Part shown: positions 8,778 through 31,408 of the stretch, in pieces
How the letters are laid out: the number at the start of each line of letters is the position of its first letter
How positions within the stretch are numbered: the stretch's first letter is position 1
Virus record (IMG/VR): IMGVR_UViG_3300033149_001784
Span: 1-55,867 of that record
From: a virus
Strand: one strand, 5' to 3'
Length of the DNA: 55,867 nucleotides
Notes under the pieces: generated by a model
What the model saw: only the letters and a program-made list of their open reading frames with translations
What the model was told of the DNA's origin: nothing
Database searches by the model: none
Program-made: the position numbers and the translations under genes

Positions 8778-10175
8778 GTGGAAGATATTGTAAAAAGAAT
8801 AGCAACCAAGTTTGCTAAAAATAATGCCGAGTTGTATCTAGTGGGTGGTACTGTTCGTGATATTATTCTTAATAGAGAATCACACGATATTGATATGGCA
8901 ACTAATATTCATCCAGATAAGATAAAAGAACTATTGGATGAGTTTGGTAGCATTTATTCTATTGGAGAAGCTTTTGGAACAATTGGTCTCAATACAGCAA
9001 GCATAACCATTGAGGTAACTACATACAGAGGGGAAAAATACACTTCTGATTCTCGTAATCCAACAGTGACATTTAGTGATAACATATATGATGATTTGAG
9101 TCGGCGGGACTTTAATATTAATGCTATGGCTATTGATTTGATAAGGTCTATTAACCATGGTGTAGACACCATTATAGACCCGTTTAATGGGCAAGAAGAT
9201 ATTAAAAATAAAGTTATTAGATGCGTGGGAGATTTCAACGAGAGATTTTCATCCGACCCGCTAAGAATGTTAAGAGCCATTAGGTTTGCTTGCCAATTTG
9301 GATTCTCTCTAGGTATAAGAATTGAGCATCCAGAACGACTGGAAATTATCTCTAAGGAAAGAATACGTGACGAGTTTACCAAAATTATTCTTTCATATAG
9401 AGCTTCTTTTGGTGTCAGAAAACTATGTCAGACTGGATTGATGTATTATGTAGCACCTGAGTTTATGGATCTAAGGTATATACCACAGGGAAAAAATCAC
9501 ACGAAAGATGCTTACGAACATTCATTGTTAGTTCTACACAAAGGTAGTAAAGTAGATGCTGGCAATAGAAATCTAATCTTCCGTCTTGCTTGTATCTTCC
9601 ACGATATTGGAAAACCAGAGACAAAGATAGAAGATGATGACGGTGTTCACTTCTATGGACACCACAATGTGGGTGCTAGAAAGACTAGAAAGATTCTACG
9701 TAGATTACGTTACAATAACGAAATCGTAAACAGCGTATGCCACTTGATAAAGTATCATATGACTCCTATTGTTTTGCAAAGGGAAATTCGAAATGGTAGA
9801 ATTAGGAAGCGAATCATCATGCGGTTGGTGAGGAAGGTCGGGGAGGATAATATTTATCTGCTATTAGATTTAGTGAGGTGTGATATTCGTTCTTCAAAGA
9901 ACCCACGTTACAAGTTTATAACTATCTTAACAAGATTAGTAAATAAGTGTATGAAGGAACAACCAGAAACTTTAACATCACCTATTAGTGGTGTGGAGAT
10001 TATGGAAGCGTTTAACCTTAAACCTAGTAAAGCTATTGGTGATATAAAGAATTATTTAACTAGCTTGGTTATAGATGGAAAATTAAATAAAGATGATAGA
10101 GAATCAGCGTTTGCCAAAGCTAGAGAGTATATTAAGCATAAAAATGAAATTAATGACATGTACAAAATGCAATAA
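8778..10175 (+). CDS. cca: CCA-adding tRNA nucleotidyltransferase
   Basis: A GTG start gives 465 residues. The class II nucleotidyltransferase head is complete: LVGGTVRD (21-28), the metal-binding pair in HDIDMAT (D37, D39), RRDFNINAMA, then DPLRMLRAIRFACQFGF and ERIRDEF of the neck. An HD phosphohydrolase-like domain follows (HDIGKPE near 277). It adds or repairs the 3' CCA of tRNAs. That fits the window: 22 tRNA genes lie downstream and eight of them lack an encoded CCA. Confidence 0.93.
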   Translation: MEDIVKRIATKFAKNNAELYLVGGTVRDIILNRESHDIDMATNIHPDKIKELLDEFGSIYSIGEAFGTIGLNTASITIEVTTYRGEKYTSDSRNPTVTFSDNIYDDLSRRDFNINAMAIDLIRSINHGVDTIIDPFNGQEDIKNKVIRCVGDFNERFSSDPLRMLRAIRFACQFGFSLGIRIEHPERLEIISKERIRDEFTKIILSYRASFGVRKLCQTGLMYYVAPEFMDLRYIPQGKNHTKDAYEHSLLVLHKGSKVDAGNRNLIFRLACIFHDIGKPETKIEDDDGVHFYGHHNVGARKTRKILRRLRYNNEIVNSVCHLIKYHMTPIVLQREIRNGRIRKRIIMRLVRKVGEDNIYLLLDLVRCDIRSSKNPRYKFITILTRLVNKCMKEQPETLTSPISGVEIMEAFNLKPSKAIGDIKNYLTSLVIDGKLNKDDRESAFAKAREYIKHKNEINDMYKMQ

Positions 10176-12017: not shown

Positions 12018-12048
12018 AGCAACCCCCTTGATACAGCAGTCAACCCAT

Positions 12049-12125
12049 TGGTTGCCGAGGGTGGATTCGAACCACCAACGCACAGGGTTTCAACCTATCG
12101 CTCTACCATTAGAGCTGTCTCGGCA
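12049..12125 (-). tRNA. tRNA-Phe(GAA)
   Basis: Acceptor TGCCGAG/CTCGGCA, anticodon loop TTGAAAC, T-arm GGTGG-TTCGAAT-CCACC, discriminator A and encoded CCA. It is the last of the array in transcription order. Confidence 0.93.
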
Positions 12126-12129
12126 AATA

Positions 12130-12311
12130 ACCTGAGCTTTCGGCAGACTGTCTACCTTCCACAGAGTCTAGATTAACAGCAGGGTGGCTGTACCACCTAA
12201 TCCAATAACTCTGGTTAGATTTTCCCCGTTCTGCCTTGTGGAGTTAAACTCAAAGAGTTAAGGGCAAGTCCACACAGGCTAGTTAGACAATACCTACTTA
12301 TTAACTCAGGT
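12130..12311 (-). ncRNA. Candidate structured RNA between gene and tRNA-Phe
   Basis: About 182 nt with no open frame. The ends pair (ACCTGAG at 12311-12305 with CTCAGGT at 12136-12130); inside are a long-range GGCAGA/TCTGCC helix (12235-12230 with 12147-12142), hairpins AACTC-ttt-GAGTT and GGTGG-tacag-CCACC, and GACT...AGTC. No known RNA family is recognised. Confidence 0.5.
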
Positions 12312-12313
12312 TT

Positions 12314-12529
12314 TTAAATAGGAAAAATGCTTTCCCCAGTCTCAACCTTTGAGACAGCTATAGACCGCTCGCTCTTCCTCTTGGTAGCTTCTCTTTCAGC
12401 TTTTAAGCGTGCAATGTTCTGCTTTGTTGCTTCATCATTCCTAGCATCCTCAGCTCTAATCTTAGCAATTTGTCTCTCATAGGCTAGAATATCCTTATTA
12501 CAAACCAATCCAAATTTTTCAGTAGTCAT
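12314..12529 (-). CDS. Small coiled-coil protein, about 71 aa
   Basis: Start chosen at ATGACTACTGAA (12529), about 9 nt after AAAGGAAGG; an ATG 9 nt earlier is too close to the SD. The product is a charged helix (KIRAEDARNDEATKQNIARL) ending in GESIFPI. It is transcribed from P3, whose predicted start lies about 40 nt upstream. The function is unknown. Confidence 0.6.
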   Translation of the reverse strand: MTTEKFGLVCNKDILAYERQIAKIRAEDARNDEATKQNIARLKAEREATKRKSERSIAVSKVETGESIFPI

Positions 12530-12574
12530 TTTTTCCATTCCTTCCTTTATTTGGAGTTCCCCAACTCTATTATT

Positions 12575-12603
12575 ATTATACCACATGCCAAAGTAGATGT
12601 CAA
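12575..12603 (-). promoter_or_regulatory. Sigma70-type promoter P3
   Basis: On the minus strand TTGACA (12603-12598), a 17-nt spacer ending TGTGG and TATAAT (12580-12575). The TGA in the -35 box is also the stop codon of the membrane protein gene 12600-12830. Confidence 0.88.
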
Positions 12604-12969: not shown

Positions 12970-13299
12970 TTAATCCAACCATCCTTTCAACCATCTTAAC
13001 TTTCGGTGATTCCAATGTATTTCATCATACTGTGAATCAGCACTAAGATGTTGCCTAACTTCTTTTATTGGTAAATATCCCCAATGCCGTCTAGGATTTC
13101 CACACATATAACAAGAACATGGAACTTTAGTTTTGCGGTAAATTCCTAACATTCTTTGTATTTCGTCTTCTGTCCACCTTAATCTGCCACAGTAACCATG
13201 CCACCCCGATTGTTTTTTATTACGTGGTGAAAATCCCTCATAATTTCTGAAAGTCTTTTCGGCTTTATACCGAGCAACAATTAATCTAGCTCCACGCAT
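12970..13299 (-). CDS. Conserved phage Cys-rich protein (CSCxMCGNPR)
   Basis: The core VPCSCYMCGNPRRHWGYLP is a recurrent signature of small proteins found in phages and next to phage tRNAs, with unknown function. The N terminus contains basic residues, the C terminus HWNHRKLRWLK. Start taken at ATG 13299 (AGGAG six bases upstream); ATG 13305 is also possible. Confidence 0.65.
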   Translation of the reverse strand: MRGARLIVARYKAEKTFRNYEGFSPRNKKQSGWHGYCGRLRWTEDEIQRMLGIYRKTKVPCSCYMCGNPRRHWGYLPIKEVRQHLSADSQYDEIHWNHRKLRWLKGWLD

Positions 13300-13308
13300 A
13301 CACATCTC

Positions 13309-18921: not shown

Positions 18922-20883
18922 TTACCTAAGCATAGTTAATATGGTATCCTTTTCAAGCGTTTCTGGTGATAAGTCTATATCTGCTTCATCCCTGTCACCA
19001 ACAAGTTTAGCACCAGCTTTAGTAAGAACATCACTTAACATAATAGTGTTTTCATAAAAGTCTAGTAGATACTTTCTGCTTCGTGTGGCAAATTCAGTAC
19101 CACTTGATGTTATTGACCTGCCTATATTTGCCTCAACAAAATAAAACTTGCTTCCTGTTGTTGTAACGATTAGCAACCCCAGTATTTTTTGCTTCTGGTC
19201 AATTTTTGATTCGGTAATTGCTACAACATTATTAGGGTCAACCATATAATTTTTTCTAAGATTCTTAGTAGCCTCATGTGCAACTAATATCTTGAACGGT
19301 ACTTTTATAGCCTCGTCAAAATTATAGTAATTAACGAATATTATAAACGATTTCTTAGTCTGCTTCTTAACATAGAAAAGTTCCGATGCTCCGTTACAAG
19401 CATCAGTCATATCACCAGAGAATAGCACATCACCTTCTTCTGTTCTATAAGAAGAATCCCAACCAATTTTACCTGTAACTGATAATAAAGACAGGTCAAG
19501 GTCAATCCTATTGTGTTTAACGTTATGCCAATTGATACCAGCAATCATATTATCAGTTAGTGACACACAAGTTCCTGATGGGAAATTACCAGTAAACTGC
19601 TTCTCAGTTGCGGGTAGACTATAATTTATATGCTCTGGAATGTATATTTTCTTGTCCTTTACATTCTTACTAACATCACGGGCAATTGAGTCTAATACAA
19701 TGTCCAATACTCTTTGAGCTTCAGTCTGATTGCCGAAGGTGAACTCAGTAGCATATCCCTTACCATTCCTTATCCTATATAAAATAGAATCCACGTCTTT
19801 TGTCCTAAATTTTAGTGCATAAGCTAATCGTATCTTCCTGAAGACATTTACTCTCCTCAGTTCAGATTGTAATTTACCTTGGGTTATCTTCTCACTATTT
19901 CCTACCCTAGCTGTAACAGTGTTAAGGAAATCTTCTGGAAGAGGTTTGTGGTATCTCACAGCAAGTCTTCTTATCCTATTAACTACTACCTTGAGTCTTT
20001 CATTTGTTCTAAAAGCTAAGAAAAGTGGTTTGAACCTATTAAATATCTCAGCTAACCTTTCTAATCCATATTTCTTTTCGTAGTCATCAAATAGTTTAAT
20101 TACATTCAAGTTATTGCTTTCCCTAATCGCTTGAATCAAATTATAATCTTTTATCAAAAGCGTTTTACTTGCTGCTTTGAAAACAATAAACCTTAAAAAC
20201 GCAACTGGATTTTCTGGAAAAAGACCTAAGTAGTCATACAAGGCGGTATTTACTTCCTTGTTCTTAACCTTTTCAATATCTTTGTCATCAACTCCGACAA
20301 ACGTGGCTACCTCTACAACAGCTTGTATCGTATCTTCCCCCAAAGCAACTCCAAGTCCTAACAAAGCAAGCAGCTTGCCCTTTAGTTCAGCTTTTGTGTA
20401 TCCTTTGATTACGATAAGTTTAATCGTATCCAACTCTACATCTGGTATGTCAAGTACCTCGTTAGGGATATAAACATAGTTAGCATCTTGGACTTTATCT
20501 AATTCTATGTCATCTAGATTTGACACCTTATCAGAAAGGTCATCAACACCCCACTGTACACCCTTTTCAATCAGATATGCTTCAGGGTTCTCTTTGCCAT
20601 AGGTAGTCAGATAGTGTGCTATCTGTTCTACTACTAATTGTTCCATACCTGTGTTTCTAACCTTAGCCCAAGCCTTGTGGAACGAACTATTCATTTGCTC
20701 AGAGCTTACCCCAACTAATCTTTCAACTTTTTCAATCAATTCATCATAGTTAGAATAGTTAGCAACAATCTCTGGTGCAAATACAAAGCCATGCTTAATG
20801 GTTGCTTCCATCAATTTTTCATCAAACTTCTTTTCCTTAGTTGTTATTGGTAGTGCTCTAAATAATTTAATTGTTGACTCCAT
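18922..20883 (-). CDS. TerD-like domain protein, 653 aa
   Basis: The N-terminal 430 residues are mostly helical with conserved-looking blocks (FHKAWAKV, EQIAHYLTTYG, VIKGYTKAELKGKL); this arrangement recurs in phage proteins of unknown role. Residues of about 435-545 (RIDLDLSLLS, DVLFSGDMTDACNGASELF, then IIFVNYYN) follow the pattern of TerD-type beta-sandwich domains, known from tellurite/phage-inhibition operons and often Ca-binding. It is the only long gene in the tRNA array. SD AGGGAAGGG; two RNA elements precede it. Confidence 0.6.
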   Translation of the reverse strand: MESTIKLFRALPITTKEKKFDEKLMEATIKHGFVFAPEIVANYSNYDELIEKVERLVGVSSEQMNSSFHKAWAKVRNTGMEQLVVEQIAHYLTTYGKENPEAYLIEKGVQWGVDDLSDKVSNLDDIELDKVQDANYVYIPNEVLDIPDVELDTIKLIVIKGYTKAELKGKLLALLGLGVALGEDTIQAVVEVATFVGVDDKDIEKVKNKEVNTALYDYLGLFPENPVAFLRFIVFKAASKTLLIKDYNLIQAIRESNNLNVIKLFDDYEKKYGLERLAEIFNRFKPLFLAFRTNERLKVVVNRIRRLAVRYHKPLPEDFLNTVTARVGNSEKITQGKLQSELRRVNVFRKIRLAYALKFRTKDVDSILYRIRNGKGYATEFTFGNQTEAQRVLDIVLDSIARDVSKNVKDKKIYIPEHINYSLPATEKQFTGNFPSGTCVSLTDNMIAGINWHNVKHNRIDLDLSLLSVTGKIGWDSSYRTEEGDVLFSGDMTDACNGASELFYVKKQTKKSFIIFVNYYNFDEAIKVPFKILVAHEATKNLRKNYMVDPNNVVAITESKIDQKQKILGLLIVTTTGSKFYFVEANIGRSITSSGTEFATRSRKYLLDFYENTIMLSDVLTKAGAKLVGDRDEADIDLSPETLEKDTILTMLR

Positions 20884-29300: not shown

Positions 29301-29462
29301 TTAAGCCATCTTTAATCCTTTGAATTCGTGGTAAACAACATAAGAAAGAACTGTACTATGTTGTCTGCCAAAGAGGTTACCTATCTTCCTGGCAGATAAA
29401 CCCTCATCTGCTTTTTGTTGCCACAACTTAACTTCGTTTTCTGTAACTTTAGTTCCGTTCAT
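29301..29462 (-). CDS. Helix-turn-helix protein, 53 aa
   Basis: ATG overlaps the stop of the DruA-like gene (ATGA). LWQQKADEGLSARKIGNLFG then RQHSTVLSYV is a helix-turn-helix of the Hin/homeodomain type (x-S-x-R-K-I-G-x2-F-x5-STV). It may be a small regulator or the DNA-binding remnant of a recombinase or homing nuclease. Confidence 0.65.
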   Translation of the reverse strand: MNGTKVTENEVKLWQQKADEGLSARKIGNLFGRQHSTVLSYVVYHEFKGLKMA

Positions 29463-31408
29463 ATCTCACCATTAACTATTCTTTGGTATCGTGGTAGCAT
29501 CCATCTATCTTTCCAATAAATAAATAATTCTTCAAATGTTTTATAGTCATAAGAATCTAACTTATCAGTTTCTTCTCGTAGGAATTCTTTATAGTTAAAC
29601 GATAGAGGAATAACGTATACCCCACGAAAATTCTCTACGCTTTGAACCTTCCCATACTTAGAAAGTTTTTGGAAAGAGTTTCCGCACCAGCAAATTTTGT
29701 CTTTTCTTCTTACTAAGATCACATGATTAGGTACTTCTATACAGTAAACATTACCACTGTATTGTACTACTTTTCTATGATTTGGAAATACTTTACAATT
29801 TTTATAGTGATGAGAAAAACCAACCCTATGAGATGGTAACCTATAGGTATCAACCGTTTGATTGGTAGTTGCCATTCCCAATTTAATAGCAATCTCTTGA
29901 ACATCCTCTGCTAATTTTATAGAAGATGAAGCATAACTTTGAAATGTACCCCACCTTTTTTCACCATCACCACCACATAAAGAATTCCACAAAATAGAAA
30001 GCTGTCTCTTAGACAAACTTTTTAATTCTTTGGGAATAAACTTATCTTCGGATTTTCCAAACTGTTTTAAATAGCTACAAAGCTGCTTAGAATTGACACC
30101 AATACATTTTTTACCTTTACCATTCCACCATTTAAACCCCAATCGTTCTATAGAAAAGATTATTTTATTTTTTGCATCCTCATCTTTTTGTGATATTAAT
30201 ACACCATAACCATCTGGTCTTGGACAACCCTCACTTATGTACCAACCAAAAAACTCTAACCAATCGTCCATTTTTAATTTCTTAGTGGGTTTAGTAGATG
30301 AACCCATCTTGTTCAACCTAGTAAGTTCTGGTAAGACAAAAAATTCCTTCTCTTCTCCCACCCAGTTAGAAACACTTCTACTCATTACATAGGTATGTTC
30401 TAAAGAAAGATTTGAGGCTTCTACTAGTTCAAGATTTTTCTTACCGTAATAAAAAGCGTGATGATGCTGTGTCAAAAGATTGTGATTTGGTGTTACTAGT
30501 AAATTTATACGGGGAGCATTTATTTCTATCATTTCTCCATTGTAGTCATATTTAAATAGGCTAATTGGTTGCTGATATTCCAATGTATCAGAAGATAAAT
30601 TTATTGTGGCAACAAAGTCTTCCTTTGTAGTATCTTTAAACAACTTCCACCCATCCTCAGTAAGTACTTCTGTATCATCTGAGTAACACTTAACAACTCC
30701 ATACTTCTCTTTAATTGTACCATCTTCATTGTAATAGATTTCTGAATATTTACCTTTTTCTCGTTTATAATCATCCCGCATTTGTTGTTTTACTTCAAGG
30801 GGAATAAGTATAGATGAATAACCTTTTGTTGTCCCAAGATACTCAAACCCTTCTAATCTATTATACATAGAACTCTTACCAAACAAGGAAGTTACCGTCA
30901 TCATAGCAAGAGGGTGACTATATTTTTGTTCAAAATAACCTTGTACTTCACTACTCAAAACAGATAGGGCACACAATTTGCCAGTTAAATAATTGCTTAG
31001 TTCTGGAGTTGCCACGCAATGTTGGACATTCATTAGATAATTCATACGTTTACCCTTCCACTTGTTATCATTTGTCCAACCAATATATTTATCTCTAATA
31101 GGGATAGTTAAATCAGAGGCTAACCCAACAACCCCAAGGATAAATCCTGTTTTCTTATCACGAACAAGATAATGAATACGCCTACCCACCTCACCAGACA
31201 ATGGGGCACTACTTACAGATACTCTACCATACCACCACAAATCATTATTAGTACAAAACTCAATATACGGCTCTAATGCCTCGACTTTGGGGACAGCGGA
31301 CTGAACCTTATCCCAAATAGGTTTTATCTTGACCAATCTGTCCGCATTTTTATCTACGTACTGCCCCTTGGCAACCAGTAATTTTTCTCGCAATTTATCC
31401 TTATTCAT
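29459..31408 (-). CDS. DruA-like (DUF4338) protein interrupted by an intein
   Basis: 649 residues as read; about 312 after removal of the intein at residues 241-577. The extein has RRIHYLVRDKKTGFILGVVG, DKYIGWTND, MNVQHCVATPELSNYLTGKL and YLGTTKGYSSILIPLE, the order seen in DUF4338 proteins such as DruA of the Druantia anti-phage system. These are related to the GNAT/Mom-like fold. As a phage gene it is more likely a DNA-modification or anti-defence protein than a defence system. Confidence 0.72.
   Translation of the reverse strand: MNKDKLREKLLVAKGQYVDKNADRLVKIKPIWDKVQSAVPKVEALEPYIEFCTNNDLWWYGRVSVSSAPLSGEVGRRIHYLVRDKKTGFILGVVGLASDLTIPIRDKYIGWTNDNKWKGKRMNYLMNVQHCVATPELSNYLTGKLCALSVLSSEVQGYFEQKYSHPLAMMTVTSLFGKSSMYNRLEGFEYLGTTKGYSSILIPLEVKQQMRDDYKREKGKYSEIYYNEDGTIKEKYGVVKCYSDDTEVLTEDGWKLFKDTTKEDFVATINLSSDTLEYQQPISLFKYDYNGEMIEINAPRINLLVTPNHNLLTQHHHAFYYGKKNLELVEASNLSLEHTYVMSRSVSNWVGEEKEFFVLPELTRLNKMGSSTKPTKKLKMDDWLEFFGWYISEGCPRPDGYGVLISQKDEDAKNKIIFSIERLGFKWWNGKGKKCIGVNSKQLCSYLKQFGKSEDKFIPKELKSLSKRQLSILWNSLCGGDGEKRWGTFQSYASSSIKLAEDVQEIAIKLGMATTNQTVDTYRLPSHRVGFSHHYKNCKVFPNHRKVVQYSGNVYCIEVPNHVILVRRKDKICWCGNSFQKLSKYGKVQSVENFRGVYVIPLSFNYKEFLREETDKLDSYDYKTFEELFIYWKDRWMLPRYQRIVNGEI
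29678..30688 (-). mobile_element. Intein with LAGLIDADG homing endonuclease
   Basis: Protein-level element of about 337 residues: C1 at CYSDDTEVLTEDGW (block A), TPNH in block B, two DOD endonuclease helices (LEFFGWYISEG and LWNSLCGGDG), block F near YSGNVYCIEVPNH and the C-terminal asparagine in CWCGN followed by serine +1. The penultimate residue is Gly instead of the usual His. Confidence 0.85.

Follow-up and report, generated by a model that had tools for sequence, protein, structure and literature searches.

A candidate family of small pseudoknotted noncoding RNAs in phage tRNA arrays, proposed from a conserved and covarying fold

RNAs without known function have been recognised in phage tRNA arrays since RNA C and RNA D of T4, which are 139 and 119 nt as annotated, respectively, and are described in the annotation as small stable RNAs without an assigned function. 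Both of these, as well as GOLLD and ROOL, have been supposed to act in trans during infection. GOLLD is a phage and prophage RNA of unknown function found near tRNA islands; many of its members are longer than 800 nt, and it forms a 14-mer cage (PMC12286853). ROOL, also a phage and prophage RNA of unknown function, often lies near tRNA islands, is pseudoknotted, and is a much larger, nanocage-forming RNA (PMC12286853).

The DNA analysed here (the window, G000) was the IMG/VR record IMGVR_UViG_3300033149_001784, with a length of 55,867 nt. An earlier note had described a noncoding stretch at 12130-12311 in which the ends pair and local hairpins accompany a long-range helix, naming no strand, and all of these features were found on the minus strand, which is also the strand of the array tRNAs. 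When the minus strand was folded, the minimum free energy was -61.8 kcal/mol compared to -48.4 ± 4.2 kcal/mol for the shuffled sequences (z -3.16), and 0 of 200 dinucleotide shuffles folded as low. The fold of the plus strand was unremarkable (z -0.46), with 56 of 200 shuffles as low. No ORF of at least 40 aa spanned the minus strand of this stretch. Among the homologues described below, the fold z ranged from -0.65 to -2.9, with some values unremarkable (-0.65 and -0.92), so that fold energy by itself is weak evidence for the RNA. The decisive support is covariation among homologues.

The RNA was present in six phages on seven contigs (the window and five other phage genomes), in a single copy per phage. 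The copy in G001 (IMGVR_UViG_3300033145_000529), a phage nearly identical to that of the window, was 96% identical. A diverged phage, G002 (IMGVR_UViG_3300033149_001989), was reached through the RecA-type protein of G001, and BLAST of the RNA against it gave two short pieces only. These two pieces were made into a gapped pattern, and a scan of IMG/VR with this pattern gave three further phages: G003 (3300027917_001949, 152.8 kb; locus L060), G004 (3300017963_000316; loci L051 and L075), and one phage assembled twice, as G005 (3300022540_000650) and G006 (3300022542_000836; loci L053 and L056), with at least 99.97% identity where compared. A first sequence pattern had given, besides the known copy, only chance matches in coding sequence, and the four matches of a genome-contig scan were likewise all due to chance and in coding sequence. 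No phage or plasmid record matched the RNA by BLASTN, and when the neighbouring protein and the primase served as queries, one near-identical phage was all that was found. The terminase (PF03237) and portal (PF05133) models had no match in the RNA-bearing records, so that IMG/VR and the phage-type genes for replication and tails are the grounds for regarding these records as viral.

A covariance model made from six sequences gave one match per record in the seven records, with E values from 1e-24 to 1e-40; since the members themselves went into the model, these values are not independent evidence, while covariation is. The model found no copy in 15 other phage contigs encoding relatives of the marker protein, nor in the regions of the cyanophages S-CRM01 and S-CBWM1, the gut phage Phass-1 and T4 that were searched. 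The length of the RNA was about 135-182 nt across members, and identity of the core fell to 55-65% between distant members. G002 and G003 are the closer phages, yet their cores were 64-65% identical to that of the window and the core of G005/G006 was 75% identical, a hint that the RNA has been transferred horizontally.

The six sequences shared one architecture, in which P1 is the closing stem, P2 a second stem, hairpin A is short, and hairpin B is long and ends in an H-type pseudoknot (Table 1). In the window, P1 (ACCUGAGUU/AGCUCAGGU) closes 12311..12130, and the limits given by the earlier note were exact to the base. By hand alignment, P1 was CAGGGUU/AACCCUG in G002 and AACCUGA/UCAGGUU in G003, and P2a was GUAGG/UCUGC in the window and GCAGA/UCUGC, CUUG/CAAG and AGGG/CCCU in homologues. 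P2b carried two compensatory changes in G002 and one C.A mismatch each in G002 and G003; it is the weakest helix, and UCUAACC could alternatively pair with GGUAGA. The loop of hairpin A had 9-10 nt in most members and 41 nt with an additional hairpin in the window lineage. The pseudoknot makes up the tip of hairpin B; of its two stems, GGUG/CACC (GGAG/CUCC and GAGG/CCUU in homologues) is interleaved with ACAGC/GCUGU (UUAGC/GCUAG, UCAGC/GUUGA and ACGGC/GCUGU in homologues). The junction strands CUAACUAGCC, GGCAG, GGGAAAAUCUAACC and GUGGAAGGUAGA were identical in all six distinct sequences, each of which shows the combination that defines the family, P1-P2-hairpin A-hairpin B/pseudoknot together with the first, third and fourth of these strands. 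An antisense role for the invariant 14-mer was considered and rejected, as its exact complement was found only within the RNA itself in each phage record.

Table 1. Positions of the RNA, its structural elements and neighbouring features (window coordinates unless a locus is named)
Feature	Position	Strand	Basis or remark
Structured RNA, core P1 to P1'	12130..12311	-	fold z -3.16; CM match 146 bits; covariation
P1 5' strand ACCUGAGUU	12303..12311	-	pairs with 12130-12138
P1 3' strand AGCUCAGGU	12130..12138	-	pairs with 12303-12311
P2a 5' strand GUAGG	12293..12297	-	pairs with 12143-12147
P2b 5' strand UUGUCUA	12284..12290	-	pairs with 12148-12154
P2b and P2a 3' strands UAGACAG UCUGC	12143..12154	-	hand alignment, covariation
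Hairpin A, invariant GCC/GGC stem	12233..12279	-	alignment
Invariant junction strand GGGAAAAUCUAACC	12213..12226	-	identical in 6/6 sequences
Hairpin B, stems CAGAGU/ACUCUG and UUGGAUUA/UAAUCUAG	12163..12213	-	compensatory changes in L053 and G003
H-type pseudoknot, GGUG/CACC with ACAGC/GCUGU	12176..12197	-	both stems covary
Invariant junction strand GUGGAAGG	12155..12162	-	identical in 6/6 sequences
tRNA-Phe(GAA)	12053..12124	-	Rfam RF00005, 44.2 bits; 5 nt downstream of P1'
Small ORF, coiled-coil-like, between promoter and RNA	12314..12538	-	ORF list
Sigma-70 promoter TTGACA-N17-TATAAT, 12/12, extended -10	12575..12603	-	consensus scan
12/12 sigma-70 sites	51632, 51528, 35570, 31732, 29288, 22956, 12603	-	consensus scan of window
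RNase P RNA (G003)	L060:2869-3272		RF00010; ends 2 nt before tRNA-His
RNase P RNA (G002)	L048:4979-5353	-	RF00010
RNase P RNA (G004)	G004:C1:32834-33193	-	RF00010

Covariation was assessed on a structure-blind MAFFT alignment. With the proposed structure, 91.7% of the cells were paired, compared to 34-45% when the partners were slid by 1-3 columns. Two-sided compensatory changes occurred in 12 of 37 pairs, a count reached in 0 of 500 shuffles (mean 4.0, sd 1.5), and were seen in every helix drawn by hand (P1, P2a, P2b, B1, B2, S1 and PK); significance of the R-scape type is limited by there being only six distinct sequences, two of them nearly identical. Covarying homologues, the lack of which the earlier note had named as a refutation, were found. 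In a search of window 12040-12420 with Rfam (E<=10, permissive filters), no family matched inside the stretch and only the neighbouring tRNA-Phe was reported, together with one chance match overlapping that tRNA on the other strand. No tRNA or tmRNA match was obtained with ARAGORN or RF00005 inside 12130-12311. RNase P RNA was rejected as the identity of the RNA, there being no RF00010 match in the window. No description of the family was found in a literature search that most subscription journals lay outside. Covarying homologues and the lack of an Rfam family bear out the proposal of a new structured RNA candidate within a phage tRNA array, and the comparison indicates that the RNA is a real, new family of small structured noncoding phage RNA.

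The array around the RNA lies on the minus strand and contained 19 tRNAs by Rfam, in the order marker ORF (window 12970-13305), tRNA-Leu(UAA), RNA, tRNA-Phe. ARAGORN did not call the tRNA-Phe. The gap between the 3' end of the RNA and tRNA-Phe was 4-5 nt in G000, G001, G003 and G004; in G002, no tRNA-Phe followed the RNA and tRNA-Tyr came next instead. The carriers were mostly phages with large tRNA arrays, and as far as the aligned members show, the RNA has a conserved fold, an invariant core, a single copy, and a fixed site between tRNA-Leu(UAA) and tRNA-Phe in arrays. In the phage of G005/G006, no tRNA gene was found in the 40 kb of contig scanned; the RNA was nevertheless there and retained all invariant strands, which favours a role apart from tRNA maturation.

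Several other features of these loci were recorded. Compared to G001, a block of Ala, Pro, Pro, Thr and Thr tRNAs was missing at the window tRNA-Phe, the 3' part of which was one base shorter, and this gene looks like a recombination product. Noncoding sequence that folds strongly surrounds the RNA in G005/G006 over about 450 nt (L053:4570-5022; z -3.6) and is possibly a larger multi-domain RNA; a long hairpin follows the RNA (z -5.4 for the 82 nt folded), and an element that resembles tRNA-Leu by eye precedes it. ARAGORN and Rfam had no match in this stretch and did not support the tRNA-like flanks, plausible by eye, at this locus. Beside the window array, on the opposite strand, positions 8778-10175 encode a tRNA nucleotidyltransferase of the CCA-adding enzyme type (PHROG 2244, E 8e-69). 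Inside the array, a 653-aa protein without PHROG match (18922-20883) had relatives 25-30% identical in the tRNA-rich phages S-CRM01, S-CBWM1 and Phass-1. Near its start, a 649-aa ORF at 29459-31408 contained CYSDDTEVLTEDGW, a stretch that looks intein-like when the translation is read by eye.

A 12/12 sigma-70 promoter with an extended -10 was found upstream of the RNA, on the same strand, in G000, G001, G004 and G003. In G003 it occupied -37 to -8 of P1, with a predicted start 2 nt before P1, and no other 12/12 site was present within the 13-kb locus. In the window, G001 and G004, the promoters lay 263-456 nt upstream of the RNA, behind a small ORF, and represent one inherited event. No promoter of the TTGACA-N17-TATAAT type was found near the RNA in G002. 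The minus strand of the window held seven perfect sites with a 17-nt spacer, an unusually clean set, suggesting that the phage relies on the housekeeping sigma factor of its host; because perfect sites are not rare in the window phage, the distant promoters are no more than suggestive, and that of G003 is the stronger hint by its exact placement and by being the only such site in its locus. A related small ORF was present in G004, while G003 and G002 had no intervening ORF, and it is probably not part of the function of the RNA. No terminator was found in a search near the RNA.

Our preferred reading, which we hold to be rather probable, is that the new family is a primary transcript that RNase P releases by cutting at tRNA-Phe and that acts in trans by binding a partner. 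A strong sigma-70 promoter would drive its transcription, which in G003 would begin 2 nt before P1. RNase P cleaves tRNA 5' ends, and its cut at the 5' end of tRNA-Phe would leave the RNA with a 3' tail of 4-5 nt. P1 and P2 would shield the ends, the invariant three-way junction may bind a protein, a tRNA or a small ligand, and the RNA would act in trans during infection. More tentatively, the RNA may be a horizontally moving class with its own promoter, the pseudoknotted three-way junction of which binds a specific partner or switches folds independently of the array; that partner may be a host or phage protein, a tRNA or a small molecule. An unlikely alternative to trans action is a cis-acting leader of tRNA-Phe without separate existence, the fold of which would either shield or time the processing by RNase P or make the tRNA transcript more stable. 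Such a leader fits the promoter common to both RNAs and the fact that four of the five phages with arrays have the RNA 4-5 nt before tRNA-Phe, but the invariant strands are kept in G002 and in G005/G006 as described above, and in the window the RNA is intact beside a recombinant-looking tRNA-Phe with a shortened 3' part. As two phages retain the RNA without tRNA-Phe, a purely cis role for this tRNA is less likely.

The other alternatives are weaker still. Pairing of UAGA with either UGUCUA (P2b) or UCUAACC is possible in every homologue, and the junction strands resemble those of riboswitch aptamers in being invariant, as expected of a ligand-sensing regulatory RNA or conformational switch in which a junction ligand shifts the balance; however, the downstream protein gene is not consistent, no terminator was found nearby, and invariant bases cannot tell the two pairings apart, so that we consider a switch improbable. 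A catalytic RNA embedded in the array, self-cleaving or tRNA-processing, might be read from the compact pseudoknotted fold and the long invariant single strands, but seems very improbable, given that no Rfam ribozyme family matches and that three carrier phages have their own RNase P RNA and need no replacement there. That a functionless fold arose by chance in a tRNA spacer, as the unremarkable z of some homologues might suggest, is hardly credible: the covariation test contradicts it, with compensatory changes and invariant unpaired strands across records, and the RNA occurs in distantly related phages.

The RNase P RNA of these carriers is of class A (RF00010, 176-196 bits) and was found in or beside the tRNA array of G002, G003 and G004, and in neither the window nor G001. 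It resembles the new RNA in being encoded in or beside the same arrays and differs in being a separate gene in these three phages. A limited literature search turned up no earlier mention of a phage encoding RNase P RNA; phages apparently carrying both RNAs are now added.

Among described phage RNAs, GOLLD and ROOL are like the new RNA in setting (phage, near tRNAs), and to that extent the likeness drawn by the earlier note stood; it did not extend to sequence or structure. Neither Rfam model matched window 12040-12420 (E<=10) or the L053 region, in agreement with the view, also put forward earlier, that the RNA is distinct from both. It shares a pseudoknot with ROOL and is much smaller, and its 135-182 nt fall short of the more than 800 nt of many GOLLD members. 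By setting and size, T4 RNA C and RNA D are the nearer precedent: they too are phage RNAs of similar size, encoded among clustered tRNA genes and on the same strand as these, whereas the covariance model of the new family, run on the T4 cluster, had no match at E values up to 10. GOLLD and ROOL are still unexplained, and the new RNA would be a further, unrelated family of phage tRNA-array RNA. GOLLD is several times larger; the new RNA, with its defined fold, invariant candidate binding core, and predicted start and processing site, makes the question of what such phage RNAs do testable by ordinary probing and pull-down.
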